DNA from: a virus
Direction: 5' to 3' (one strand)
DNA: 39,607 nucleotides
Virus record (IMG/VR): IMGVR_UViG_3300032282_004450
Span: 1 to 39,607 of that record
The notes under the pieces: model-generated
The model's database searches: none
What the model was told of the DNA's origin: nothing
What the model saw: only the letters and a program-made list of their open reading frames with translations
Shown: in pieces, positions 7,706 through 39,276 of the stretch
How the letters are laid out: every line of letters starts with the position of its first letter
Numbering within the stretch: position 1 is the stretch's first letter
Translations under genes and position numbers: made by a program

Positions 7706-10700
7706 TTACCTCACTGCTATAGTTCTTAGATCTTTAATTAAGACTGGTTTTGATTGATCAGTTGAAGACATAACAATTTTTATTGTATAACCAACAAATT
7801 GATCTAAATTCTCAGCAGTGCACTGATATTCTGAGAATGAACCATCTGTATTTGCTGCAACAAATGCATCTGATCTGCCACTATTTTTTGCTGGGTTAAT
7901 TATTAGATCACCAAATCCATCACCATTAATATCAACTAAGTTATCATAACCTGGGAATAATTCAAATGGTTGATTTATTCCATTAGAATCTGGTCTAACC
8001 AAACTGTACAATACTCTAAAATCAGCGGCAGCAGGTCTACTTGCTGTTAAAATAACCTTCAATGAAGTTGCTGGTTGTTTTAGATCAATAGTATTTGAGA
8101 TGTAAATTGCGGAATGTGGATCATCAGATACTGTTTTAACTAGATTATTTCCAGCATAATCTGTGATTGGGCTATTAATTCTATTGCTCCTAAATTCGGT
8201 CAAAGCACCATCAAGGAAAATTTGAGGAGATAGATTAGAATTTTGTGTAGATAAAACTAGTGCCGTAGTAAATGATTTACTTCTTGGTAGACCAGTTAAA
8301 TATGTTTGCTCATTAACTTTTGAACAAACAATTCTGGTTGAGGATAATTTATTAACTTTGTTGAGTTCTACAGATTCAAATCCTTGATCAACGAATGAAA
8401 GTTCAGATCCATTTACACTTGTTCCACTAACAGTTCTAATAGAAGCTGATACTGATGTTGAAGACCCTGGATTCAGGATAGTATAATTTGGAGTTAGTGA
8501 ATCGAATTGTATATTTTCAGAAGCGGAAGCATTTCCACCTAGCAATTCTTCGTCTTGGAATTGTAATTGTGGGAAATTCGAAGGGCTATTATCAGCACTT
8601 CTGTTCACTCCATTTGCAGATCTATCAATTTCAACATAGTACTTATCAATTTCAATTCCAAAATCACTAATTTTATGAGTGGTATTAATTCTTCTTAGCG
8701 ATACACCATTCAACTCATATTTGTACACTAAATCATTAATATCATACGAATTTGCAAGTGTGGAATCAATTCCACGTGTTACAGTCTGAAGAACTCCATT
8801 TCCAACTGATTCGTATTTGATAATTTCATTCTCAATTTTAGCATATCCAGGATTGGTAGCACTAACTGGCATTCCCTCAAAATTTACAAAGTTAGAAGTA
8901 TTAGCAGATCCAATTGCAAATGATGTTGCAGATACGGTTACAGAACTTTGTAAAGGTGCGGGAGGAGTATTTGACAAAACATCACTTAATGTAATCCTAT
9001 TATTTTTAGCATACATTCCATGATTATAGTGATTGACTTGTAGGAAATTACCTGAATTTTGATCTGTTTGTGGCGTTGATGCTGTAATAGTATTTGACAA
9101 TAATGTATTTACCACATTAGTATCATCATAGTAAATTGGATTAGCACCAACCGTAAATGATTGGCCCTGAACATTGGTTAAGTAAAGGGTGTCAATACCT
9201 GTTGTAATACCAGTAACTGTTATTTGAGCATCTTTTCCTATACTTCCAGATGTCGATGTAACAATACCAAGAACATCACCTTGTTGGTATCCATTTCCTC
9301 TGAGTACAGGAGTTACACTATTGATAATACCATTACTTGCTGTAATATTAACAGTCAATCCAGAACCCTGTCCAGTTATTGGATAAGTACTAACATTGGA
9401 TTGTGTTGTGTAATTAACACCACCTGTAGTTATTCCAATTGAATATGCAGAGCATCCAGTCCCAACGACATATCCATAATTATATGTCTTTGAACTTTCA
9501 CTAACTTTTCTACCAGTTGTTAAAATACCAATAGTAACTGCATTTGTAATTGTTGTTATTCCAACTTTTAATTTTCTAGGATAAGTTCTCAGTGGATTAT
9601 TCTGAAGTTTTTTAACATATCCATTGCTACCATCAAGGGTTGGATTATAGAAATAAACAGTTGAAGGTGTAGTAACAAATTTTGCTTTATAAAGCTTGAA
9701 CTTTAAATCTTGATATTGATTTGCAGTCCAAATAGATCCATTTTGTGATTTGAATAGACTACCAGTTGCAAATTGCGTGCTGTAAATAACATTATCTACA
9801 TTGTTATTACCAACTGTCTTTTTGCCCATTTCAGCAATCCAGACTGTATATGCATCTGAATTTGGTGAAAGAAGTACAATAGAGTATTCTCTTCCAGGTG
9901 ATAAGAAAATAGGATAGTCAAATGTTACTTTTGTTGCAACAGATGCATCTGAAGATGTATTAATATCTGAAGGTCTTAAGACCTTTGATTTTCCAACAAC
10001 AGTTCTAGTTGGAGTTCCTAACTCCATTGTTCTTATTTCAACTGTGAGTGGTGCATCGCCAGAATCTTTTGTAGCAAAAAATAGATCAACAGCAGTTAAA
10101 TATGCACCCTCTTTATCTTCATCAACAGTTCCTGAAGAACTATTATCCCCAATATTTGCACCAACAGTAAATGATTGTGCCAGTGGGTCATAAAACTCAG
10201 TAATAAATGTTGTATTAGTAGTTAAAAATGTATTTACAATACCACTAGATGTATAATTTGTTTCAGCAGTTGATATTGAAGTAGAACCTGGCAATCCAGG
10301 GCTGTTCGTTGAACTTGAAGTGACCTTATAGGTTTTTGTACCAGTTAAAAATCTAGACTGTGGTGGTGGTGTAGTAAGAGGATCTCTCAAGAAGAAAGAT
10401 CCGATTAAATCACCAAAATTATCACTAATTAGTCTTAGATCTTTTACATATGCTACTGCACCACTGGTTTGTCCAACCAACTTCATACCAACAACCAAAT
10501 ATCCACTATAAAATCCTTGTGCTTCTTCGGCAAGAGCAAAAGTATCAATATTAAGAACTTTAGAGGAAGAACTATATGTAGATAGTAGAATTTCGGTAGT
10601 GCTTGAATATGGATTTATTCCATATGTTTTTGATGGACTGTTATACTGTCCTGTTTTATGATTTCCAGAGCAAACTCTTGCTCTAAAAATATTACTTCCA

Positions 10701-19400: not shown

Positions 19401-22400
19401 CAGAGAGTGATTTAACTATATCACCATTTGTTGAAGTAATACCACTAAACACAATACTTGTAATTCCAAGAACTGCATTATCAACAACATTAAAGTTATT
19501 TCCAGTATTATTTTTAGTTGAAGGTGTTTGGAAAATACTATTAATGAATACTATTCCATTTCCACCTGTTGATCCAATACCAGTAGTGTTGAATCCATTG
19601 AGGGTTAGAATATAAGTTTGACCAATCCCAGTAAATGTTTCCGAAATATTATCATAAAGTGTATTTGTAGTATAATCTTTTCTTAGGAATACTCTTCCAG
19701 TAAAACTTGATTTTGGTTGTTCTAAGTTACTTGTATCTCGAACGGTAACAGCATTTCCTCTAGGTGCTTCAGTAAACCAAATCTTATTACCTACAATGTT
19801 ATAAGACCCTCTATAAAGTTGTATTGGCGAATCATTAACATGAATTGTTGCTGCTGTACCTGCATATCCTCTTTGAGTTTCAAGGACGTAATAAGTTCCC
19901 AATCCACTAATTGGCGATCCGCTAGTTGTACCTAAACCAACCGAAATAACTTTAACAAATTCATCATCGATCTTCAATAAATCACCTGGTTTCATTGAAG
20001 AGATGCCACTAACTGAGAATAATGTATTTCCTGCACCAATTCCATACTTTGTTCCAACTTCTTGGGGACTAGAAATAGTGAGGAAATTATCTATCTCTTG
20101 ACTGAATACAGTATCTGCCCATGGTGAATATTGTCTTATTGAATAAGTTGGATCAATTGCACTGGAATAACCAACAACTGAATTTGTGTTATATTTTAAT
20201 TGATAATTTAATAAAGAATAAGAAATAGGTGCCTGTACAACACTATCAATTGTAAGAAGTGACCTCTCAAGTTTTTTGGTCATTTCCAATTTATGGGAAT
20301 TACCGAGACCAAAAGATGTAAAGGTTACATAAATTCCCGCTTGTGCATATTCCCTTCTGGTTGCTAATTTAAAATTACTATTATCCAATTTAATTGGATA
20401 GACTCTTGGTGGAAGGAAATCAGTTACAACTCCAGTGTAGCTAAGAGTTGCGCCTATACCAACAGCGGTTACTCCAGTTCCTAAGAAAGTAGTGTCTGGT
20501 TTATAAATTAATTCCTCAGCAGTTTGGAAGAAATGATCTGGTATAGTAAATGTTCCAGTTACTGGATTGAATTGTATTGGATTGGAAGGGTTGAAAGATT
20601 TTTCAAAAATTGGAATACCTTGATAATTAGCATCAAAATCTAGTTTATTAATTCTTCTCGCATTTAATCCATTATATGGTGTTAAACTAAATTCTTCTTG
20701 TAAAGTTCCATAATTTAAATTAGGTGGTTCATTTAAATAATCCGCATCAAGGTAGAATACTTCTGCAAATGATTTAATTTCAACAATTCCACTACCCAAA
20801 TTGGAATTTGGATAGAAAATGAGACTGTTGGTTGTAATATCGGTGTTTGCACCAAAAGTTCCAATTCCAGAGGTTGAACCAATTGATAAAATTGGATATT
20901 GGGTTAAGAATGTCTCATCTCCATTACTCAAGTATAGCAATTGGTGCAATTCACTACTGGATCCGACACTTAACTGTACTTTTGCTTTAAATGCTGCTAC
21001 TTCAGTTTTTATATAAGATATAATTGTAGTACCAAATCCAACTACACCATTTGATAATGTAGTAGCATATTTTGTTTCATATTTTGCACTTCTTTCGAGA
21101 CCATCTAATTGACCAGGTACTTGGAATCTAAATGTTCCTATACCAACAGAACTAGGACCAAATCCTACAAATTTACTATTAACAACAACAGTATGGGGAG
21201 AATCGTTATTAAACGTTAATGAAAGAATGCCAGAGGATACTGATGAACTAAATGTACCAATATAATTGTTTGAAAAATTATTTGTTAATGAGCTAGTATC
21301 ATAGAAATACTGAGACATATATGTATCTTGCCCATCATATATCGCATATAGTTCAACATAATCCATATCGTTAGTTACAGTATCCATTACTTGAATGGTT
21401 CCATGGAAAGCTCTATAATTTTCTGTAGTAGCAATTGATACTACAGAAGTTGTAACTCCAGGAGAAACATAACTAGAAGAACCAGTAAGTTTAACTAAAC
21501 CAACACTTGTGCTCCCAATACCAATAGAATTATTTGGAAATCCACTCTTAATACATTTAATATCATAATCTTCATTATATGGATCGAGTGGATCAAATCT
21601 CAAACTAATAGTTAATAATGTATCATCGACATATCCATCGATATCAGCAACTCTAATAATATTATCATTTACAGTTGCTCTTTGTAGGGTAAAGACATTG
21701 TAGTCTTGATCTACAAGGATCACAAGATCTTCTATTTGAAATCTACTCTTACTTGTATTTGCAATTTGAATTAAGAAAGTACTAAAATTATCTGGAAGTT
21801 GGTATGTTGTTAAATCTGCATATCCAACAGCTGGAGCATCATTATTTGTAAAGAGATTTGCAATATCATCTAGTTGAAGAACTCTATTTGTATTACATTG
21901 AATATAATTCGAAAGTTTTCTATTTTTTAATTTGACAAATTTTGATTTCGAATTTTCGGTATTAACATCTAATCCAAAATCAAGATTATTAATGGTATCA
22001 ACTCTATTTTCATTTAAGATATCGTAAATAATTGATGATCCATCTGTCGATCCAATACCAGTTCTTGTTGAGGATATTACCTCAGTATCTGAGAAGTTCT
22101 TCAGTCCACTTGAATGGACCAAAGAATTTACTGCAGTTATTGACTTATCAAATGTAATAGGACTCTTAATTGTATAAGAGAGATTTTGGAAATAATCATT
22201 ATCCGATAAAGATTGTCCATCATCATCTAATACTCCAACTTTATCATTCCATGAATAATTACTTCTTGTTGAATATTCGGTCTCAAATCTTCCCAATCTA
22301 TTGTCTATTTTTGTAATAGATGCTGTAGATCCAGATACTACACCTCTTACTTTTTCACCAACTGAAAGTTGATAAGAACCAATAAGTTTAAGTGTAATTG

Positions 22401-33645: not shown

Positions 33646-33674
33646 ATCATACACCATTATCTATAAGGTGTCAA
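33646..33674 (-). promoter_or_regulatory. Sigma-70 promoter TTGACA-17-TATGAT
   Basis: On the minus strand a perfect -35 box TTGACA (33674-33669) and a -10 box TATGAT (33651-33646) are separated by exactly 17 bases. The start site would be near 33639, giving a leader of about 16 bases before the glycosyltransferase-like ATG. The TGA stop of the upstream 67-aa gene lies inside the -35 box. The host RNA polymerase should recognise it. Confidence 0.85.
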
Positions 33675-33874
33675 TCATCCTTCTGTTCGGATAATATGAC
33701 TTCATTTCCGTCCAGGTGAAAATTGATCTCAGTATCTTCATACCAAGAAAGATCATTGACAATTTCTTCTGGAACAATCAAATAGTATTCTCCACTGATT
33801 GGATCGACTTGTAGGGGCTGTGAATTATCGCGGAAATTTTTTCTCATATCAACGTATATGAATTCTATTTTCAT
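33671..33874 (-). CDS. Small AbrB-like cyanophage protein (67 aa)
   Basis: The 67-aa product begins MKIEFIYVDMRKNFRDNSQP and continues DPISGEYYLIVPEEIVNDLS, with a swapped-hairpin-like pattern of strands and the ending INFHLDGNEVILSEQ. This layout (ISGEYYLIVPEEIVNDLSW then DTEINFHLDGNEVIL) recalls SpoVT/AbrB DNA-binding domains, which act as dimers. The match is by eye and moderate. I recall the same small protein in other cyanophages. Its stop overlaps the -35 box of the next promoter, and it is the last clearly AT-rich gene before the compositional step at about 34,005. Confidence 0.7.
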   Translation of the reverse strand: MKIEFIYVDMRKNFRDNSQPLQVDPISGEYYLIVPEEIVNDLSWYEDTEINFHLDGNEVILSEQKDD

Positions 33875-33908: not shown

Positions 33909-33990
33909 TGTGAGTATTTTTTATGGCGAAAAATTTTTTTATGATTGATGGAATAAAGAGCTCGGTTTCGTAACACTTTATAGCTTATGG

Positions 33991-34003
33991 GGACCCATGG
34001 GTT
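33991..34003. repeat. Palindrome ACCCATGGGT next to the GC junction
   Basis: A perfect 10-base palindrome (ACCCATGGGT, 33993-34002) lies in an intergenic stretch directly before the composition change. It could be a protein-binding site or a small hairpin; I recall similar CCCATGGGTCCCC-like text in cyanophage intergenic regions, but not well enough to name it. Confidence 0.35.
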
Positions 34004-34014
34004 TTAAACGGCCC
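34002..34014. repeat. Direct repeat copy 2 at GC junction
   Basis: The second copy of the 13-base repeat (12 of 13 identical to 33896-33908). Everything to its left is AT-rich phage sequence and everything to its right for about 4 kb is GC-rich. Confidence 0.5.
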
Positions 34015-34111
34015 GCCGCCCACGGGGACGCGGCGCGGCGCCAACTGCCAAACACGAACCCACGCATAAGGCACTGCCCCCCACCCCGAAGGGCAGAGGG
34101 CAGGGGGCGGG
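34010..34111. other. GC-rich intergenic stretch with hairpin
   Basis: No gene is supported here. It holds a short GC palindrome (GGCGCGGCGCC, 34042-34052 region) and a stronger hairpin at 34076-34108 with outer arms GCCCCC and GGGGGC, three bases past the stop of the 63-aa gene. The hairpin lacks a T-run on the minus strand, so it is a candidate terminator or transcript-end stabiliser only. Confidence 0.5.
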
Positions 34112-34303
34112 TCACCAGGTCGGCAGTGCCTCCTGGGCGGACTGGGCGTGAGTCTCTGAATACTGGGCGGCGATCACGGTAGCAGGCAGTCCCCAGTGAA
34201 TGTAGGCGGAGGGGCGGGAACCGTTGTTGATCTGATCAGCGCGGGAGATCCACTTGATTTGGCGGGTCACCAGGTCGGAGCACATTGCAAGAGGGAAACG
34301 CAT
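34112..34303 (-). CDS. Unrecognised 63-aa protein
   Basis: The frame begins with ATG at 34303 (MRFPLAMCSDLVTRQIKWIS) and ends in TGA at 34112. The central part includes RADQINNGSRPSAYIHWGL, and the rest is helical. I do not recognise a family. Its promoter-like element TGCTAGGAT lies about 22 bases before the start, in the same layout as the neighbouring cassettes, which is the main support that this is a real gene. It is the last gene of the GC-rich array before the junction. Confidence 0.6.
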   Translation of the reverse strand: MRFPLAMCSDLVTRQIKWISRADQINNGSRPSAYIHWGLPATVIAAQYSETHAQSAQEALPTW

Positions 34304-34325
34304 CGGGTCGGTTGCGAACGAATGA

Positions 34326-34334
34326 ATCCTAGCA
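34326..34334 (-). promoter_or_regulatory. Extended -10 promoter of the 63-aa gene
   Basis: The minus strand reads TGCTAGGAT, a TGN extension plus a weaker -10 hexamer (TAGGAT), about 22 bases before the ATG. It is the most divergent member of the array's promoter set and lacks the CTCAGTTCAA box. Confidence 0.5.
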
Positions 34335-34338
34335 CGAA

Positions 34339-34542
34339 TCAGGCGAAGCAGTGCAGATTGACCCAGCGACCCAGGGACAGATTCGAATCCAGGAGCAGCA
34401 GCAGAATCTCCAGGCGGGATGCTTCCAGGCGATACAGGCGGGCGGGGGTCTTATGGAAGCGGACCCGAACGCTGCCCGTGATGGGGTTGGCGATCAGGGT
34501 GTCGATCGCTTCGCTGTTGCTGGTGTTGATGGGGAATCGCAT
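34339..34542 (-). CDS. KTSC-like small protein (67 aa)
   Basis: I start at ATG 34542 (MRFPINTSNSEAIDTL) because the promoter lies directly upstream of it; upstream in-frame ATGs would lie beyond that promoter. The 67-aa product follows the KTSC pattern: SEAIDTL, then a strand pair around SVRVRFHKTPARLYRL, then a helix, and SLGRWVN near the end, like the S-x-G-x-x-x-N ending of KTSC domains. KTSC proteins are small, common in phages and bacteria, and of unclear function, with RNA binding sometimes suggested. The match is by eye. Composition and codon use fit the GC-rich cassette array. Confidence 0.65.
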   Translation of the reverse strand: MRFPINTSNSEAIDTLIANPITGSVRVRFHKTPARLYRLEASRLEILLLLLDSNLSLGRWVNLHCFA

Positions 34543-34558
34543 CGGTTCAGGTGGTTGG

Positions 34559-34580
34559 TTGAACTGAGAGAATTGTAGAG
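34559..34580 (-). promoter_or_regulatory. Array promoter of the KTSC-like gene
   Basis: The minus strand has TACAAT (34577-34572) followed by TCTCTCAGTTCAA, the common downstream box. The -10 is preceded by TC, not TG, so it is not extended. The ATG is 29 bases downstream. Confidence 0.7.
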
Positions 34581-34582
34581 GG

Positions 34583-34921
34583 TCAGGCGGCGGCGAAGCG
34601 GTCGGCATAGACAGATTCCAAACCGTATGCCTCCTCCTCCCGCTGGGCATCATCGGTGATACCCTCCAGCGATTGGCGGCAGTGGATCAGTTCGTGAATC
34701 AGGGTGACCACGTACTCAGAGCGGGGCAGGTCGCGCTCCACTTCCACCAGGAACTCCAGGTCGTCCTCCTGCTGCTGCCACCCTACCACACCCTCAGCGT
34801 TCAGGCGCTTATGATGAACCGTGATCGCCGCGGCCCCCAGCAGCGGTTCCTGGTCAAGCATAAAGCGGTAGATCTGCTGTGCCAGGCGGGGGCGTTGCTT
34901 CTGTCCTGAGGTGAGCAGCAT
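34583..34921 (-). CDS. Putative HExxH zinc metallopeptidase-like protein (112 aa)
   Basis: The 112-aa product carries TLIHELIHCRQS (HExxH at residues 76-80), the zinc and catalytic motif of many metallopeptidases, and a downstream EEEAYGLE (95-102) that could give the third metal ligand, as in gluzincins. The start, MLLTSGQKQRPRLAQQIYRF, lies about 21 bases after the promoter -10 element. The protein is small for a full peptidase but similar to minimal SprT- or ImmA-like domains. An anti-host or anti-repressor role in early infection is a hypothesis only. The preceding gene's TGA lies five bases from the promoter -10. Confidence 0.7.
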   Translation of the reverse strand: MLLTSGQKQRPRLAQQIYRFMLDQEPLLGAAAITVHHKRLNAEGVVGWQQQEDDLEFLVEVERDLPRSEYVVTLIHELIHCRQSLEGITDDAQREEEAYGLESVYADRFAAA

Positions 34922-34934
34922 CGGTCGGTTGCGG

Positions 34935-34951
34935 TTGAGAGTATTGTAGCA
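34935..34951 (-). promoter_or_regulatory. Array promoter of the metallopeptidase-like gene
   Basis: The minus strand reads TGCTACAATACTCTCAA: an extended -10 and the downstream CTCTCA box. The upstream gene's stop codon ends five bases before TACAAT. The leader to ATG is about 15 bases. Confidence 0.8.
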
Positions 34952-34953
34952 GA

Positions 34954-35151
34954 TCAGCGGCGGTTCTCAAACCCCCGTGCCATTCCCTGAAAAAAGGCGG
35001 CGATGATGCCCTGCCAAAAGGCGGGGTCCTTGACACAGGCGCCAATGGCATTCATCCAATCCTGGGCGGTAGCGTTGGCGATTGCCTCCCGCTCTGCAGG
35101 GGTCAGGTCATCCAGGAACTGCTGCAGGTCGTCGGTAGCGTTGCGGGTCAT
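34954..35151 (-). CDS. 65-aa protein of unknown function
   Basis: I start at ATG 35151 (MTRNATDDLQQFLDDLTPAE), which lies after the promoter; an upstream ATG at 35205 would sit before the promoter. The 65-aa product is helical and has LTPAEREAIANATAQDWMNA, a Cys, and KDPAFWQGIIAAFFQGMARG near the C-terminus, an amphipathic or possibly membrane-touching helix. It resembles small cyanophage proteins with a DDLTxxE...QDWxNAIGACxxDPxFW pattern that I recall without a function. Stop codon TGA is five bases before the next promoter -10. Confidence 0.7.
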   Translation of the reverse strand: MTRNATDDLQQFLDDLTPAEREAIANATAQDWMNAIGACVKDPAFWQGIIAAFFQGMARGFENRR

Positions 35152-35166
35152 GGGGTCCGTTGCGGA

Positions 35167-35182
35167 TGAGAGTATTGTAGCA
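35167..35182 (-). promoter_or_regulatory. Array promoter of the 65-aa gene
   Basis: The minus strand reads TGCTACAATACTCTCA, 22 bases before the chosen ATG at 35151. It settles the start choice, since the longer frame would start upstream of the promoter. Confidence 0.8.
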
Positions 35183-35201
35183 GATCGGCGGGGGATGCCC
35201 C

Positions 35202-35372
35202 TCACATCCCGTTGAGGAAGTCCGCCAGTGCCTCATCGTACTCTGCCTTGGTTTGGAAGGTCCGCCCGTAGATGGTGCGGGGGTACTCTGCCTTAGGGGC
35301 AGGGGTGCGGCAGTCCGCCTCATCGTATCCCATCTCCAGGAGGGTGGCAACGTAGGGGTTGGAGTGAGTCAT
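35202..35372 (-). CDS. 56-aa protein of unknown function
   Basis: The frame runs from ATG 35372 to TGA 35202. The product begins MTHSNPYVATLLEMGYDEAD and ends FQTKAEYDEALADFLNGM. It is acidic and helical, with aromatic residues in the first half. No family recognised. Support comes from the clear promoter upstream, codon use like its neighbours (C- or G-ending codons such as CTG, GCC, GAC), and clean placement between two other cassettes. A YGRTFQTKAEYDEALADF segment could be a short helical interaction module. Confidence 0.65.
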   Translation of the reverse strand: MTHSNPYVATLLEMGYDEADCRTPAPKAEYPRTIYGRTFQTKAEYDEALADFLNGM

Positions 35373-35380
35373 CAGTCGTT

Positions 35381-35410
35381 TCGTTTGGTATGAAACCAGT
35401 ATAAGGGGTC
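35381..35410 (-). promoter_or_regulatory. Array promoter, TATACT type (30-bp repeat copy 1)
   Basis: The minus strand has TTATACTGGTTTCATACC, with -10 TATACT (35403-35398) and no CTCAGTTC box. The whole 30-base block is identical to 36026-36055, which precedes another cassette. The ATG at 35372 is 25 bases downstream. Confidence 0.75.
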
Positions 35411-35417
35411 GGGGGGG

Positions 35418-35597
35418 TCAGTCGCGGTCGCTGATGTGCCAGGTTGTGGATTGGACCATCGGTGCCCGACCTGAGCGGATCGCTTCGCGGCGGACTTCCT
35501 CTGCCTGCAGTCGCTGCAGGTAGGATGCCATCGCTGCCTGGCAGATCGGGTCGTTGGCAGCGGTGTCGTTCAGGAGGAAGGGACCTTGGCGGATCAT
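35418..35597 (-). CDS. 59-aa protein of unknown function
   Basis: The frame runs from ATG 35597 to TGA 35418. The product begins MIRQGPFLLNDTAANDPICQ and contains a helix with SYLQRLQAEEVRREAIRSGR (about residues 25-44). No family recognised. The promoter is 21 bases upstream of the ATG and a second promoter follows the stop at once, as in the other cassettes. Strand, codon use and composition fit the array. Confidence 0.65.
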   Translation of the reverse strand: MIRQGPFLLNDTAANDPICQAAMASYLQRLQAEEVRREAIRSGRAPMVQSTTWHISDRD

Positions 35598-35610
35598 CGG
35601 TTCGTTTGCT

Positions 35611-35627
35611 TTGAGAGTATTGTAGCA
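35611..35627 (-). promoter_or_regulatory. Array promoter of the 59-aa gene
   Basis: The minus strand reads TGCTACAATACTCTCAA, 21 bases before the ATG at 35597. The stop of the upstream gene is 12 bases before TACAAT. Confidence 0.8.
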
Positions 35628-35636
35628 GATCAGGGG

Positions 35637-35813
35637 TCAGTTGAACCAGGCGGCAAGGTTCGCCAGTTCGCAGGCGGTGTCCTCCAGGTTCGCTTCGGTC
35701 AGACCTGCCAGGCAGGATTCAATGTCCTCATCGGGCACATAGAACAGGTTGCCGTTGATCTCCTGTGCCATCTCATCGGCAAGGTCCAGGCAGCGGGAGC
35801 GGAGGTCGGTCAT
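35637..35813 (-). CDS. 58-aa acidic protein of unknown function
   Basis: The frame runs from ATG 35813 to TGA 35637. The product begins MTDLRSRCLDLADEMAQEIN and is strongly acidic, with four Cys-containing or Cys-adjacent positions (residues 8, 34, 48). It is mostly helical (NLEDTACELANLAAWFN at the end). No family recognised. The promoter -10 here is a perfect TATAAT. Confidence 0.65.
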   Translation of the reverse strand: MTDLRSRCLDLADEMAQEINGNLFYVPDEDIESCLAGLTEANLEDTACELANLAAWFN

Positions 35814-35827
35814 CGGGTGGGTTGCTG

Positions 35828-35844
35828 TTGAGAGAATTATAGCA
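35828..35844 (-). promoter_or_regulatory. Array promoter of the 58-aa gene, perfect -10
   Basis: The minus strand reads TGCTATAATTCTCTCAA: TGN plus the consensus -10 TATAAT, 22 bases before the ATG at 35813. This is the strongest -10 in the array. Confidence 0.85.
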
Positions 35845-35853
35845 GGTCGGGGG

Positions 35854-36015
35854 TCAGCGCCCCTCAGTGTACTCCCCGATAATCATGCCATTCTGGCGGA
35901 CCTGGGCGTAACCGTACTCCTCAGAGAGGGAGAGGCAGAGGTCCCAGGCGCGGTCGGCGTCGGTGGTCTCATTCTCCCAGGGAGCGGAGGGGCAGATAAC
36001 GTCAAGGCGGTTCAT
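35854..36015 (-). CDS. 53-aa acidic protein of unknown function
   Basis: I start at ATG 36015 (MNRLDVICPSAPWENETTDA) because the promoter lies upstream of it; a further in-frame ATG at 36102 would lie past the promoter. The product is acidic, with a helix DADRAWDLCLSLSEEYGYAQ (about 19-38) and the ending VRQNGMIIGEYTEGR. No family recognised. Stop codon TGA is 12 bases before the next -10. Confidence 0.65.
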   Translation of the reverse strand: MNRLDVICPSAPWENETTDADRAWDLCLSLSEEYGYAQVRQNGMIIGEYTEGR

Positions 36016-36025
36016 TCGGTTCGGT

Positions 36026-36055
36026 TCGTTTGGTATGAAACCAGTATAAGGGGTC
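36026..36055 (-). promoter_or_regulatory. Array promoter, TATACT type (30-bp repeat copy 2)
   Basis: Identical over 30 bases to 35381-35410. The -10 TATACT is at 36048-36043 on the minus strand, 27 bases before the ATG at 36015. Confidence 0.75.
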
Positions 36056-36068
36056 AGGCGGCAGGATC

Positions 36069-36091
36069 GGGGGCGGCAGTGTGCCACCCCC
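36069..36091 (-). terminator. GC hairpin after the nuclease-like gene
   Basis: The minus strand has arms GGGGGTGGCA and TGCCGCCCCC around a 3-base loop, with one mismatch, eight bases past the stop of the nuclease-like gene. There is no T-run, so it may stop transcription weakly or protect the 3' end. Confidence 0.5.
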
Positions 36092-36098
36092 TCAGGCG

Positions 36099-36632
36099 TC
36101 ACATCAGGCGGCGTCCGTGCTTGCGGATCTCACCAGCGGACAGGGTGACACCGATGCGGGGGTCCTTTGCCTTGCCGTTGCGCTTGCTGGCGTATTGTTT
36201 CTGTGCCTTGGGCAGCAGCAGGGAGAGCACCGTGTCAGAGTCCAGGACCCACACCTCAGCGACCTGTGCCCCATCATAGCGGGCGTAGAAGTGCTGGGGG
36301 TAGCATCCGATCTTATGGTCGATCAGGTATGCTTCCTGATCCTCCCAGGTCGGTTGAACGCTGATCCCGTTGTAAGTGGCGGAGATGCTGCTGCCGATGG
36401 TGGATTTGTATTCTACAGGGGTGCCATCGGGCAGGAAGGCATCGGCGCCGCTGTAGGAGTCTGCCACAGTGTGCCCCAGCAGGCAGGCAAGGTGGATCTC
36501 ACGGGAGCGGGCGTAGGACATCGGATCGCCAGCGTTCAGGGCGTCTGCCGCTTCGTAGAGTGCGGCGAAGGCGTCCAGGTATTGTTGCTGGGCGACGGTC
36601 AGGGTGGCAGCGGTGTCGTTGGTGATGAACAT
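36099..36632 (-). CDS. Putative PD-(D/E)XK nuclease-like protein (177 aa)
   Basis: The 177-aa product starts at ATG 36632 (MFITNDTAATLTVAQQQYLD), which follows its promoter. The core motif is seen as SREIHLACLLG (Glu45), SGADAF (Asp64) and VEYKST (Glu74, Lys76), the spacing of a PD-(D/E)XK active site. A conserved-looking block TIGSSISATYNGISVQPTWE follows. The end (DPRIGVTLSAGEIRKHGRR) is basic and could bind DNA. I recall this EYKSTIGS-type family in phages and some bacteria, without a settled function. Host-DNA degradation, recombination or anti-defence are possible roles. It is the largest cassette in the array. Confidence 0.7.
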   Translation of the reverse strand: MFITNDTAATLTVAQQQYLDAFAALYEAADALNAGDPMSYARSREIHLACLLGHTVADSYSGADAFLPDGTPVEYKSTIGSSISATYNGISVQPTWEDQEAYLIDHKIGCYPQHFYARYDGAQVAEVWVLDSDTVLSLLLPKAQKQYASKRNGKAKDPRIGVTLSAGEIRKHGRRLM

Positions 36633-36640
36633 CGGGTCGT

Positions 36641-36660
36641 CTGAACTGAGATCAGTATAG
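36641..36660 (-). promoter_or_regulatory. Array promoter of the nuclease-like gene
   Basis: The minus strand reads CTATACTGATCTCAGTTCAG, with -10 TATACT at 36659-36654, 21 bases before the ATG. It is identical over 20 bases to the promoter at 38152-38171. Confidence 0.8.
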
Positions 36661-36662
36661 AA

Positions 36663-36688
36663 GCAAAAGGGAGGGGTCGTCCCCCTCC
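36663..36688 (-). terminator. Rho-independent terminator after the 47-aa gene
   Basis: On the minus strand a 7-bp stem (GGAGGGG with CCCCTCC) and a 5-base loop are followed by TTTTGCTT. It lies between the stop of the 47-aa gene and the promoter of the nuclease-like gene. Confidence 0.75.
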
Positions 36689-36700
36689 GTTGTGCCACTA

Positions 36701-36844
36701 TCAGAACTGGATTGCTTCGAAGTGGGCAGCGGCGTCAGCGATGTTATCCTGCTCCACCTGGTCGGTGATCGACTCCAGGATCTGGAGCAGTTCGTCGCCA
36801 TTGGCGGCGCGGTTCAGCAGGGCAGCAGCAAGGTCAGCGGTCAT
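36701..36844 (-). CDS. 47-aa cyanophage-type protein
   Basis: The frame runs from ATG 36844 to TGA 36701. The product begins MTADLAAALLNRAANGDELL and continues QILESITDQVEQDNIADAAA. I recall many cyanophage proteins of this length with a GDExLxILxSI pattern near residue 16-26, of unknown function. A promoter lies 27 bases upstream and a rho-independent terminator directly downstream, so it is an independent transcription unit. Confidence 0.75.
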   Translation of the reverse strand: MTADLAAALLNRAANGDELLQILESITDQVEQDNIADAAAHFEAIQF

Positions 36845-36864
36845 GGGTTTCAGGGGGTGAAGGG

Positions 36865-36880
36865 TGAGAGTATTGTAGCA
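36865..36880 (-). promoter_or_regulatory. Array promoter of the 47-aa gene
   Basis: The minus strand reads TGCTACAATACTCTCA, 27 bases before the ATG at 36844. The upstream gene's TGA lies 12 bases before TACAAT. Confidence 0.8.
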
Positions 36881-36889
36881 GGTAAGGGG

Positions 36890-37030
36890 TCAGGGTGCCA
36901 GGTGGGCAGGCGACCCGCAGGAGCGGTAGAAGGCAACCATAGATTCCGCTTCGGCAAGGGTGCGGAAGAACTGAGACCGCCACTCACAGGCATTGTAGGG
37001 GGTCTGGTAGCGGACTTCGTAGCGGATCAT
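36890..37030 (-). CDS. 46-aa cyanophage-type protein
   Basis: The frame runs from ATG 37030 to TGA 36890. The product begins MIRYEVRYQTPYNACEWRSQ and ends VAFYRSCGSPAHLAP. It looks like a small alpha/beta protein: two short strands, then a helix LAEAESMVAFYRSCG. I recall cyanophage proteins of the same size with a KVxYxxxY...FxxxxxAxxFVxFxRSCG pattern, function unknown. It has its own TATACT-type promoter. Confidence 0.72.
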   Translation of the reverse strand: MIRYEVRYQTPYNACEWRSQFFRTLAEAESMVAFYRSCGSPAHLAP

Positions 37031-37039
37031 CGGGGTTGG

Positions 37040-37059
37040 TTGAACTGAGGTTAGTATAG
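37040..37059 (-). promoter_or_regulatory. Array promoter of the 46-aa gene
   Basis: The minus strand reads CTATACTAACCTCAGTTCAA, with -10 TATACT (37058-37053), 22 bases before the ATG at 37030. A perfect hairpin touches its upstream edge. Confidence 0.78.
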
Positions 37060-37077
37060 GGGGCAAGGGGTGCCCCC
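37059..37077 (-). terminator. Perfect GC hairpin abutting a promoter
   Basis: The arms GGGGGCA and TGCCCCC flank a 5-base loop between the stop of the 56-aa gene at 37100 and the next promoter. Its inner edge is the base next to TATACT. There is no T-run on the minus strand. Confidence 0.55.
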
Positions 37078-37099
37078 TGTGGATCAGTGTGCCAGTGCC

Positions 37100-37270
37100 T
37101 CAGGCGGCACCGATCACCAGGATGTCATCCTCCCAGCGGGCAAACTCCAGGATCTCAGCATAGGCGGCGTCAATGGCACGGCAGGCATCCGCTTTCAGGA
37201 TAGCATTGCGGCACTGCTCAGCGATGGCGTCGATGGACTGGGCACGGTCGGTGGCAGGGTTGTAACGCAT
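37100..37270 (-). CDS. 56-aa helical protein of unknown function
   Basis: The frame runs from ATG 37270 to TGA 37100. The product begins MRYNPATDRAQSIDAIAEQC and is helical, with two Cys (residues 20 and 30) and an acidic end (EILEFARWEDDILVIGAA). No family recognised with confidence. Codon use is GC-rich and like its neighbours. The promoter is 28 bases upstream. Confidence 0.68.
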   Translation of the reverse strand: MRYNPATDRAQSIDAIAEQCRNAILKADACRAIDAAYAEILEFARWEDDILVIGAA

Positions 37271-37285
37271 TGGAGGTTCGGTTGA

Positions 37286-37307
37286 TTGAACTGAGAGTAT
37301 TGTAGCA
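37286..37307 (-). promoter_or_regulatory. Array promoter of the 56-aa helical gene
   Basis: The minus strand has TGCTACAAT followed by ACTCTCAGTTCAA, the fullest form of the array consensus, 28 bases before the ATG at 37270. Confidence 0.85.
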
Positions 37308-37353
37308 GCAGTTTAGGGTCGTGCCCAGGACCAGTGTGCCACTTGTCTGGCTG

Positions 37354-37542
37354 TCACTCCATGCCCATCGCTGCCTTCAGATCGTTGTATGCCTTCAGGT
37401 AGTAGTCGGCATCGGCACCTTTGCCAGCAACGCGGCAGTCACAGGCAATGCACAGGAGGGCGGTGCGGATCGTGCTCCACTGTGCCTCAGTCAGGGTGAC
37501 GGTGCAGAGGTCCAGGGGCAGGACGTTGGTGCGGACGGTCAT
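37354..37542 (-). CDS. 62-aa protein of unknown function
   Basis: I start at ATG 37542 (MTVRTNVLPLDLCTVTLTEA) because the promoter lies just upstream; longer in-frame starts would lie past it. The 62-aa product has a helix WSTIRTALLCIACDCRVAGK (about residues 22-41) with several Cys, and ends DYYLKAYNDLKAAMGME. No firm family; I recall short cyanophage proteins with similar LTxxEWxxIRxAL patterns. Possible metal binding through the Cys group is speculative. Confidence 0.7.
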   Translation of the reverse strand: MTVRTNVLPLDLCTVTLTEAQWSTIRTALLCIACDCRVAGKGADADYYLKAYNDLKAAMGME

Positions 37543-37554
37543 GGGGTTCGCTTG

Positions 37555-37573
37555 TGAACTGAGAGTATTATAG
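37555..37573 (-). promoter_or_regulatory. Array promoter of the 62-aa gene, perfect -10
   Basis: The minus strand reads CTATAATACTCTCAGTTCA, with consensus -10 TATAAT (37572-37567), 24 bases before the ATG. The upstream edge is a hairpin arm of Cs, so no TGN extension is present. Confidence 0.82.
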
Positions 37574-37586
37574 GGGGTGGCACCCC
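37574..37586 (-). terminator. Small palindromic hairpin between stop and promoter
   Basis: The sequence GGGGTGGCACCCC is a perfect inverted repeat (5-base arms, 3-base loop) directly after the stop of the 79-aa gene and directly before the -10 of the next promoter. It may be a minimal terminator; no T-run. Confidence 0.5.
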
Positions 37587-37826
37587 TCAGAATGCCACCA
37601 GCTGGTCCAGATCCCATTGTGGCACAGTCTGAACGGTGCCGCCGCAATTCTTGCGGATCCAGGCGTTAATGTGCTTGGTGGTGGTGGCACTCCACTTGTG
37701 AGCGGTGCGGATCCACCCCTTACCAGGCACCAGGGCGGCAACGGGGGTCACGTAGGAGAACAGGATGCAGGTCCCGTCTGCCAGTTGCACTTCCGTTTGG
37801 TTGCTGCCGATCTGTTGAACGATCAT
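37587..37826 (-). CDS. 79-aa conserved cyanophage protein
   Basis: The product begins MIVQQIGSNQTEVQLADGTC and continues ILFSYVTPVAALVPGKGWIR, then KWSATTTKHINAWIRKNCGG (about residues 43-62). I recognise this as a family found in very many marine cyanophages (VQL-NGT-ILFSY-TPVAA and SATTTKHIN), with no known function. Its presence in the GC-rich array is the best evidence that the array itself comes from a cyanophage. The promoter is 22 bases upstream. Confidence 0.82.
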   Translation of the reverse strand: MIVQQIGSNQTEVQLADGTCILFSYVTPVAALVPGKGWIRTAHKWSATTTKHINAWIRKNCGGTVQTVPQWDLDQLVAF

Positions 37827-37835
37827 GGGGTTCCT

Positions 37836-37857
37836 TTGAACTGAAAGTATTGTAGCA
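37836..37857 (-). promoter_or_regulatory. Array promoter of the 79-aa gene
   Basis: The minus strand has TGCTACAAT followed by ACTTTCAGTTCAA, 22 bases before the ATG at 37826. The upstream gene's TGA lies five bases before TACAAT. Confidence 0.8.
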
Positions 37858-37859
37858 GG

Positions 37860-37976
37860 TCAGCGGGCGATCAGGTCGCCTGCGGTGTACAGTGCCTGAG
37901 CTGTCACATTGCGGATGGGTCGGATCGGTTCCCAGAGCAGGCAGAGCAGCACGGCAGCGGCGGCGACTTTCAGCAT
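37860..37976 (-). CDS. 38-aa membrane microprotein, coupled to upstream gene
   Basis: The frame runs from ATG 37976 to TGA 37860. The product begins MLKVAAAAVLLCLLWEPIRP, a hydrophobic stretch long enough to be a membrane anchor or signal-type helix, then VTAQALYTAGDLIAR. I recall short cyanophage proteins with the pattern of a hydrophobic start, R(Q/N)VTA and a closing AGDL. The start overlaps the stop of the 55-aa gene as TGATG, so it is translated by coupling, and it has no promoter of its own. Confidence 0.68.
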   Translation of the reverse strand: MLKVAAAAVLLCLLWEPIRPIRNVTAQALYTAGDLIAR

Positions 37977-38143
37977 CACTTGCAGTAGGATGGGTCTGCC
38001 TGGCACAGTGCCTCTGCCTGCCGCTCCTGATAGGTGTTGACGGTGGCAGAGGCAGACTGCATCGCCTGCAGGGCAACCCAGGCACAGAAGAACGTAAACA
38101 GGGCAGAGGTGATCAGCGGGAAGTAGAAGCGGATCGGGTTCAT
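37976..38143 (-). CDS. 55-aa membrane microprotein
   Basis: The frame runs from ATG 38143 to TGA 37976. The product begins MNPIRFYFPLITSALFTFFC and has a hydrophobic segment of about residues 5-27, then a polar helix (SATVNTYQERQAEALCQADP) and a C-terminal CK with a second Cys nearby. A single-pass membrane protein with its polar end outside or in the cytoplasm is likely. The stop overlaps the ATG of the 38-aa gene. Function is unknown; small coupled membrane proteins in phages are often lysis- or exclusion-related, but that is only a guess. Confidence 0.72.
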   Translation of the reverse strand: MNPIRFYFPLITSALFTFFCAWVALQAMQSASATVNTYQERQAEALCQADPSYCK

Positions 38144-38151
38144 TGGAATCC

Positions 38152-38171
38152 CTGAACTGAGATCAGTATAG
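38152..38171 (-). promoter_or_regulatory. Array promoter of the two membrane microproteins
   Basis: The minus strand reads CTATACTGATCTCAGTTCAG, identical to the promoter of the nuclease-like gene at 36641-36660. The -10 TATACT is at 38170-38165, 21 bases before the ATG at 38143. Confidence 0.8.
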
Positions 38172-38382: not shown

Positions 38383-39276
38383 TCACACTTTCTGAAACCG
38401 ACCGTAGTTGAAGTTAGCATAAGCGAAGACCTCACGATTGACCAGTTTGAACATACCAAACTCATTGGTCATAACATAACCTTCAGCGTCGATTCTGTTG
38501 CCGTTCAGGTATGCTGCGGGACCATCATTGCGGCAGAGGAACAAACAATCATCTTTGATCGACTTCACCAATGCCCACAGACGCAGCAGGTTAGTATCAC
38601 AATCGAAGTCCTCAGGGTTGATCTCTTCACCAGCACGAATGCAGGCGTTGATCTGTTGTTTGATCTTTGCTGCCTCTTTATCACTCACAAACGTTGCAGT
38701 TGTTGCCATCTGACGGGCGAACTTGCAGATCTCTTCAACATCAGCGAACGACTCCTGATTGTGCAGGATGTAGGCATCAGGTTTCACAAACTTGACGGTC
38801 TCAGTATCAGTCCAGATGCTACGATCAGGGAATGCCTCAGCATCACGAAGATCGCTCTCAGCATAATAGCAAGTGTGAGGGGCGATGATAATTTTCTGGG
38901 AAACTACATCACCGAACTTATAGGTCACCACGTTCGGAGTGTACTCATTCTCACCACCGAACCCGATGAAGTCTGCCTGATAGATTGTCTCCAGGCGAGG
39001 CAGATAATCGAAGCAAGCGTGAAGAATCTCTGCCACATTGCCTTCGTAGTGTTGATCAATCTCAGCGTGAGAGTGAGCAATACGAATCTTCTTTTTGTTG
39101 AACACTGCCTTAGTGCCCACGAAGAACTCACCGCAGGCAGGATCAATCCCCCACACAATAGCAGGGGCGCCGTCGATCTTGACGCTCAGGGCACCAGGGG
39201 TCACGAACCAGTCCAGGACGCTCAGATCGCCCGTGAGGATGGTGTCTTCGGGGTGCTCTTGGTGCTTGTTCTGCAT
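38383..39276 (-). CDS. Covalent nucleotidyltransferase / ligase-like protein (DUF6267-like)
   Basis: The 297-aa product has the motifs of the DNA/RNA ligase and capping-enzyme superfamily. SVKIDGAPAIVWG (residues 31-43) holds KxDG with the nucleotidyl Lys33. QADFIGFGGENEY (about 100-112) is a plausible motif III area. AEGYVMTN (264-271) gives motif IV (EGYV) and MFKLVN (275-280) gives motif V with Lys277. The N-terminal HPEDTIL plus KIDGAPAI recalls DUF6267, found in T4-like phages. Substrate is unknown: ligation, nucleic-acid repair or RNA capping-like transfer are options. It has its own promoter and terminator. GC content is intermediate between the two larger regions. Start ATG 39276 is supported by the promoter 21 bases upstream. 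Confidence 0.75.
   Translation of the reverse strand: MQNKHQEHPEDTILTGDLSVLDWFVTPGALSVKIDGAPAIVWGIDPACGEFFVGTKAVFNKKKIRIAHSHAEIDQHYEGNVAEILHACFDYLPRLETIYQADFIGFGGENEYTPNVVTYKFGDVVSQKIIIAPHTCYYAESDLRDAEAFPDRSIWTDTETVKFVKPDAYILHNQESFADVEEICKFARQMATTATFVSDKEAAKIKQQINACIRAGEEINPEDFDCDTNLLRLWALVKSIKDDCLFLCRNDGPAAYLNGNRIDAEGYVMTNEFGMFKLVNREVFAYANFNYGRFQKV

Follow-up and report, generated by a model that had tools for sequence, protein, structure and literature searches.

The stretch of viral DNA analysed here (the window) is the full IMG/VR record IMGVR_UViG_3300032282_004450, a linear fragment of 39,607 bases, and the subject of this report is an array of small genes at 34112-38171 in which nearly every gene is preceded by its own copy of a promoter-like element. 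Positions 1-33,950 hold the baseplate and further structural genes of a T4-like cyanophage whose closest named relative is S-SRM01; the assignment to the Kyanoviridae is based on a syntenic gp25-gp6 baseplate block and flanking genes common to the window, S-SRM01 and S-PM2, the contig being a 39.6 kb fragment. Within 34112-38143 there are 16 genes, all on the minus strand; an earlier note on this DNA had their strand and coordinates right and had counted about fourteen of them. The parts of the array are listed below, with the position weight matrix (PWM) scores of the -10 boxes in brackets and protein lengths in amino acids (aa).

34112-38171, minus strand: cassette array with one promoter-like element per gene, about 60% GC, between the DUF6267 gene and the AbrB-like gene
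38165-38170, minus strand: -10 box TATACT (17.6) of cassette F80; gene 37976-38143, 55 aa
37860-37976, minus strand: 38-aa open reading frame (ORF) without its own promoter, overlapping the stop of the preceding gene (TGATG), seen in the sequence
37849-37854, minus strand: -10 box TACAAT (38.0) of cassette F1; gene 37587-37826, 79 aa, phrog_5643
37567-37572, minus strand: -10 box TATAAT (34.9) of cassette F13; gene 37354-37542, 62 aa
37299-37304, minus strand: -10 box TACAAT (33.5) of cassette F10; gene 37100-37270, 56 aa
37059-37077: G-C hairpin immediately upstream of the F5 -10 box
37053-37058, minus strand: -10 box TATACT (35.0) of cassette F5; gene 36890-37030, 46 aa
36872-36877, minus strand: -10 box TACAAT (14.4) of cassette F46; gene 36701-36844, 47 aa
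36670-36688: terminator-like hairpin with a T run, upstream of F7
36654-36659, minus strand: -10 box TATACT (37.1) of cassette F7
36099-36632, minus strand: F7 gene, 177 aa, phrog_35715, predicted PvuII-fold restriction endonuclease
36069-36091: hairpin upstream of F3
36043-36048, minus strand: -10 box TATACT (26.1) of cassette F3; gene 35854-36015, 53 aa
35836-35841, minus strand: -10 box TATAAT (30.2) of cassette F25; gene 35637-35813, 58 aa
35619-35624, minus strand: -10 box TACAAT (33.1) of cassette F12; gene 35418-35597, 59 aa, phrog_14769
35398-35403, minus strand: -10 box TATACT (25.4) of cassette F19, in a promoter almost identical to that at 36048 (F3); gene 35202-35372, 56 aa, phrog_649
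35174-35179, minus strand: -10 box TACAAT (32.3) of cassette F15; gene 34954-35151, 65 aa
34943-34948, minus strand: -10 box TACAAT (32.0) of cassette F14; gene 34583-34921, 112 aa, HExxH metallopeptidase-like
34572-34577, minus strand: -10 box TACAAT (38.1) of cassette F11; gene 34339-34542, 67 aa, phrog_7365
34326-34331, minus strand: degenerate -10 box TAGGAT (10.7) of cassette F0; gene 34112-34303, 63 aa
39313-39334: strong terminator-like hairpin with a T run, before the DUF6267 gene
38383-39276, minus strand: DUF6267 gene, conserved upstream flank of the array
33671-33874, minus strand: small AbrB-like gene, conserved downstream flank, on the low-GC side of the step near 33990

The promoter-like element and its spacers

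Fourteen of the 16 genes carry a TAYAMT hexamer (TACAAT, TATAAT or TATACT) beginning 27-35 bases before the start codon, a distance that the earlier note had put at 15-30 bases. In the 4138-base island that holds the array, 16 copies of TAYAMT lie on the gene strand and 0 on the opposite one, when a first-order Markov model gives a mean of 1.3 and a maximum of 6 in 1000 runs; a strict longer form, TAYAMTNNTNTCA, is found 13 times against 0, with 0.005 expected, which bears out the claim that nearly every gene has its own -10 element. Past the hexamer, CA stands at the sixth and seventh base in 14 of 14 sites, in a search that did not demand it, and CTCAGTTCAA is present in full or nearly so in about half of the window sites, so that of the shared downstream box described earlier the CA is general and the longer form partial. 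This post-hexamer part is as conserved as the hexamer. As the earlier note had also said, no conserved -35 element is present, the columns at its position staying at or below 0.38 bit in 305 unique sites, and the upstream stop codons in the window lie close to the next hexamer, often 5-15 bases before it. A TGn ahead of the hexamer (extended -10) is frequent, not universal. The leaders are A/C-rich and mostly devoid of a Shine-Dalgarno sequence, and in the loci from relatives the distance from hexamer start to ATG is mostly 27-33 bases. Transcription probably starts at the A of the invariant CA, and with this start the leaders would measure about 15-21 bases. A lone weak match of the promoter matrix (13.2) at 8007 on the plus strand, within a large structural gene, is probably due to chance.

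In the model that we propose, a unit would consist of a G-C hairpin in some cases, the promoter, a short leader of that kind and one small gene. The promoter would be of the cyanobacterial SigA/sigma-70 type without a -35, often with an extended -10, TGCTACAAT, and the host RNA polymerase would read each unit separately, straight upon infection. Having a host-type -10 before genes presumed to be early, these units resemble the sigma-70 type early promoters of T4 and of the Microcystis phage Ma-LMM01; they differ in the absence of a conserved -35, the early promoters of Ma-LMM01 having two hexamers 16-18 bp apart (PMC5780444).

The spacers between the units are of two kinds. The short kind, with the hexamer <25 bases after the stop, accounts for 108 of 185 non-redundant spacers and shows no excess of structure (mean z -0.65), whereas 75 (about 40%) are long and have a G-C hairpin before the promoter (mean z -2.0), with a T run at few of the hairpins. 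Most spacers would then have no hairpin to halt read-through, which is one of the points that speak for a different explanation, namely that the repeat is chiefly an element of RNA or regulation, either a translation leader that the genes share or the site of a phage factor around CTCAGTTCAA, with polycistronic transcripts that start upstream. The strong conservation past the hexamer and the A/C-rich leaders with few Shine-Dalgarno sequences would suit it as well. However, TAYAMT followed by CA exactly seven bases downstream is the start geometry of a sigma-70 type promoter, many sites have the TGn extension, and the hexamer lies outside the leader, so its conservation would not be required of a leader element. 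Moreover, the same element heads multi-gene blocks elsewhere in S-PM2, at 8.6, 9.9 and 11.4 kb. We consider this explanation improbable.

A fixed site with mosaic content

Sought before small genes of related cyanophages, along the lines of the earlier note, the motif was found in many contigs and in the isolate S-PM2. Its exact 19-base form occurs in 63 stretches of IMG/VR, and a strict site is present in 28 of 40 loci that were found independently through F7, the largest array protein. A PWM built from relatives gives 720 sites in the collected loci and 0 in reversed-sequence controls; 697 of the 720 precede an ORF, and the encoded proteins (median 62 aa, 427 distinct) fall into 81 families. 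In the contigs that measure 205-213 kb, strict sites are concentrated at one place a few kb long, and isolated ones are spread over the remainder. When the consensus promoter was compared with named phages by blastn, the matches were at chance level only.

The complete array was recovered in 37 loci, always between DUF6267 and AbrB-like/phrog_1574 genes and just upstream of the gp25-gp6 baseplate genes. The content at this fixed site is highly variable: 30 of the 37 arrays are distinct in family order, they have 0-17 promoters over 1.1-6.1 kb, and compared pairwise their family content has a median Jaccard index of 0.20. Over all loci, 54 families form 183 distinct neighbour pairs. The order is nevertheless mostly kept: 58 pairs of families are found together in four or more arrays, 39 of these pairs always in one order, and the mean majority is 90%; F0, for instance, usually sits near the downstream end. 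Cassettes are therefore gained, lost and replaced, and rarely moved, so that the modular gain and loss foreseen in the earlier note stands and the free shuffling does not.

The joins between exchanged stretches were studied in segments shared by two of 46 non-redundant islands (≥80% identity, ≥150 bases). Left ends fall within 20 bases before the hexamer in 37% of cases (6.6-fold over background) and right ends within 40 bases after it in 42% (3.7-3.9-fold), and ends are nearly absent from mid-gene bins 60-150 bases off. In pairs that have only the upstream gene in common, the excess similarity reaches to about -13 (0.49 versus 0.33 at -16) and has vanished at +16; in pairs with only the downstream gene in common, the excess sets in at the hexamer (0.70 versus 0.54 at +16). 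Such a switch from upstream to downstream linkage across the promoter is what a crossover within the promoter predicts. We therefore favour, with good but not full confidence, a reading in which this T4-like cyanophage carries an array of cassettes that each express one gene and the promoter copies are recombination joints. The copies would provide short homology at which recombination between phages, or between copies, joins cassettes, and members would come, go and be replaced without changes in order or in the site between DUF6267 and AbrB/gp25. The promoter may in this way be both switch and swap point. Joins at copied promoters would offer a concrete mechanism for the spread of orphan phage genes, testable in cultured S-PM2.

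Several points weigh against this proposal. Segment-end counts are non-independent, many pairs being drawn from the 46 islands, and BLAST extends into any conserved promoter, so that segment ends alone are no proof of crossover; the linkage comparison, the better test, sets means side by side with no confidence interval. The motif itself served to collect about two thirds of the loci, although most of the 40 loci found through F7 have it too. With 108 of 185 spacers devoid of a hairpin and few T runs, read-through could in practice yield a polycistron. Selection against broken genes would also purge mid-gene joins, and in this line the promoters could be real and the mosaic the product of illegitimate recombination plus selection, the promoter being no crossover site. 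Intergenic joins are expected there wherever broken genes get lost, and the promoters are identical over short stretches, of about 10-25 bases. On the other hand, linkage changes inside the promoter, the segments in common start within the 20 bases ahead of the hexamer, and the largely kept order fits homologous exchange better than random insertion. Taken together, these data make an illegitimate origin rather unlikely, and we keep to promoter copies as the probable joints.

Promoter-early stem-loop (PeSL) cassettes were reportedly described by Arbiol et al. 2010 (Genome Biol Evol 2:140) in RB49/phi1 and other T4-type phages, where an early promoter and a stem-loop terminator are said to lie between single early genes and copies to recombine with each other, small circles included. 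That PeSLs between single early genes had already been described in other T4-type phages (cited in PMC4503421; PMC4177764 lists the reference) makes the statement of the earlier note that T4-like phages group early genes behind shared promoters only partly fair. The array shares with PeSLs an often copied, sigma-70-like element of early type (a promoter, as judged from sequence) between single small genes of a hyperplastic region, as well as joins of exchanged segments at the cassette, and in part the hairpin before the promoter (75 of 185 spacers): the long spacers resemble PeSLs, and the short ones are a reduced form. Unlike PeSLs, most units here have no stem-loop, there is no -35, an initially transcribed box is conserved, the phages belong to a cyanophage family and the array forms a sharp GC island. 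Beside PeSLs, the sharp 60%-GC island with reversed codon usage and the predicted PvuII-fold nuclease cassette with CATG-depleted carriers, both described below, appear to be new, although priority is uncertain.

In S-PM2 the array occupies 21.8-24.8 kb, directly upstream of gp25-gp6, with 8 such promoters in 3 kb and families F18, F19, ArdA-like F45, F2, F12, F16 and F0, and the region is retained in the deletion strain record LN828717. It must be told apart from the S-PM2 'ORFanage' (5.8-15.3 kb, ORFs 017-050; PMC4503421), for which Puxty et al. 2015 (PMC4503421) judged PeSLs unlikely, as too sparse to explain it. Both are variable blocks of small orphan genes in a T4-like cyanophage, but the ORFanage has overlapping genes in long blocks, only three such promoters, lower GC and another place, and its identity with the array was rejected. 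In marine isolates such as S-RIM32, S-RSM4, S-B43 and P-SSM2 the corresponding place holds one or two of these sites or individual families. In the S-PM2 record NC_006820, promoter-headed genes with starts at 21830, 22097, 23503 and 23789 (21.8-24.2 kb) are unannotated; the record has p067/p070 at their place on the other strand, an annotation that looks wrong.

The composition island

The genome has 32% GC (29-39% along positions 1-33,950), and the array stands in it as a sharp-edged island. Near 33,990 the GC content steps from about 35% to 60-70% within about 150 bases, and it then stays near 60% up to 38,200. This step (33950-34150), which the earlier note missed together with the nuclease, sits exactly between the array and the AbrB-like gene and is kept in relatives. 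Codon usage is reversed across it within one contig: leucine is encoded by CTG in 76% of cases in the array genes and TTA has a share of 0.00, against 0.43 in the structural genes; arginine is CGC in 76% and AGA 0.01, against 0.77; and isoleucine ATA is almost unused, against 22%. S-PM2 carries tRNAs for codons of the type favoured by the structural genes (TTA, ATA, AGA kind). The island suggests an adaptation of early genes to the codons of a GC-rich host, before phage tRNAs are made, although GC content alone may also cause the reversal.

A step of this abruptness, with codon usage reversed on its two sides, might also point to a foreign array, either recently transferred from a bacterial host or joined by chimeric assembly, an option to which we give hardly any credit. 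Matches in blastn cross the step in six separate contigs (L055, L074, L081, L100, L101, L102; copies L021/L023), F0 adjoins AbrB-like/phrog_1574 genes in 40 loci, window included, and DUF6267 plus the island end is present in 41 loci; these spanning matches and the same two-sided arrangement in 40 loci rule out a chimeric assembly. Transfer is further opposed by the 46 non-redundant islands of 51-60% GC, by the island of the same kind in S-PM2 (51-61%), and by the exact motif, which has no match in 84,980 bacterial and archaeal species genomes.

Other compositional traits accompany the island. RGCY (GGCC, AGCC, GGCT, AGCT) is avoided in the array genes of the window and the loci (122 occurrences versus 1373 expected from synonymous shuffles), alanine after G being GCA 509 times and GCC 13 times, and CCGG is likewise avoided; RGCY is depleted, to a differing degree, in all Kyanoviridae tested. 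CTCG/CGAG is also avoided in the islands (128 versus 881 in synonymous shuffles of 388 coding sequences), the flanks being far milder (260 versus 494).

Gene products and a predicted nuclease

Function is unassigned for nearly all array families. Hints exist for F14, which is weakly HExxH metallopeptidase-like, F45 of S-PM2 (ArdA-like, anti-restriction), F43 of relatives (MutH-like) and F47 (HicA-like). The array proteins are likely to act when phage and host first meet, and one of those in the window is a predicted restriction-type nuclease; the ArdA-like (S-PM2), PvuII-fold (window) and MutH-like (relatives) cassettes point indirectly to a role in host takeover. A defined place, motif and matrix would help to locate the genes, presumably early, with which the most abundant cyanophages engage their hosts.

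The nuclease is F7. Its AlphaFold2 model (predicted local distance difference test, pLDDT, 89.5) has as its top 12 Foldseek matches only PvuII chains (E 2e-6 to 7e-5, template modelling score, TM, about 0.5-0.6), and an active-site pattern D...ExK (D64, E74-x-K76) is invariant, from which a PvuII-fold restriction nuclease is predicted. A relative in P-TIM68 (45% identity), with a weak match to Pfam Endonuc-PvuII (E 0.002), adjoins an N6/N4 DNA methylase.

The target of F7 would be CATG, according to site counts in the carriers. The observed/expected ratio of CATG has a median of 0.20 in contigs with F7 and 0.72 in those without it (p 8e-6, 16 tests), a value to be weighed against a wider scan of 416 family-palindrome pairs, in which F7-CATG ranks first (p 1.7e-4) without being significant once corrected for 416. 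Several carriers are fully devoid of CATG (0 versus 73 expected in contig L035), and CATG is the sole 4-base palindrome depleted in them. RGCY was rejected as the target: the cyanophages tested all avoid it, whether they have F7 or not, and the depletion of AGCT/GGCC is weaker in carriers. GATC shows mild depletion only (0.68-0.86) with the MutH-like F43. The inferred CATG site differs from the CAGCTG of PvuII, its best fold match, and the array of the window has no methylase. The loss of CATG in carriers suggests a stand-alone nuclease with self-protection through site loss. A nuclease cassette with a matching loss of sites would suggest a way in which phages that lack modified bases may distinguish their own DNA from that of the host.

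A parallel case strengthens this reading. Four isolates carry an MjaI-like restriction gene, and their observed/expected counts of CTAG are 0/38 in S-SM2 (gene at L111:8682-9206), 2/35 in S-RIM32, 1/28 in S-H9-2 and 11/46 in S-CAM3, those of the last two being taken as the test of a prior prediction; in isolates without the gene the ratio is 0.57 to 1.2. A more general picture, which we put forward tentatively and would not bet on as a whole, is that the Kyanoviridae keep a GC-rich, host-codon-matched early module whose promoter is switch and joint, in which takeover and counter-defence genes are traded unit by unit, and whose stand-alone nuclease (predicted CATG) cuts host DNA, the phage being spared by site loss.

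Finally, relatives about 50% identical to F1 (37587-37826) occur in phages of Pectobacterium, Cronobacter and Enterobacter, an unexpectedly wide distribution for a small cyanophage gene.

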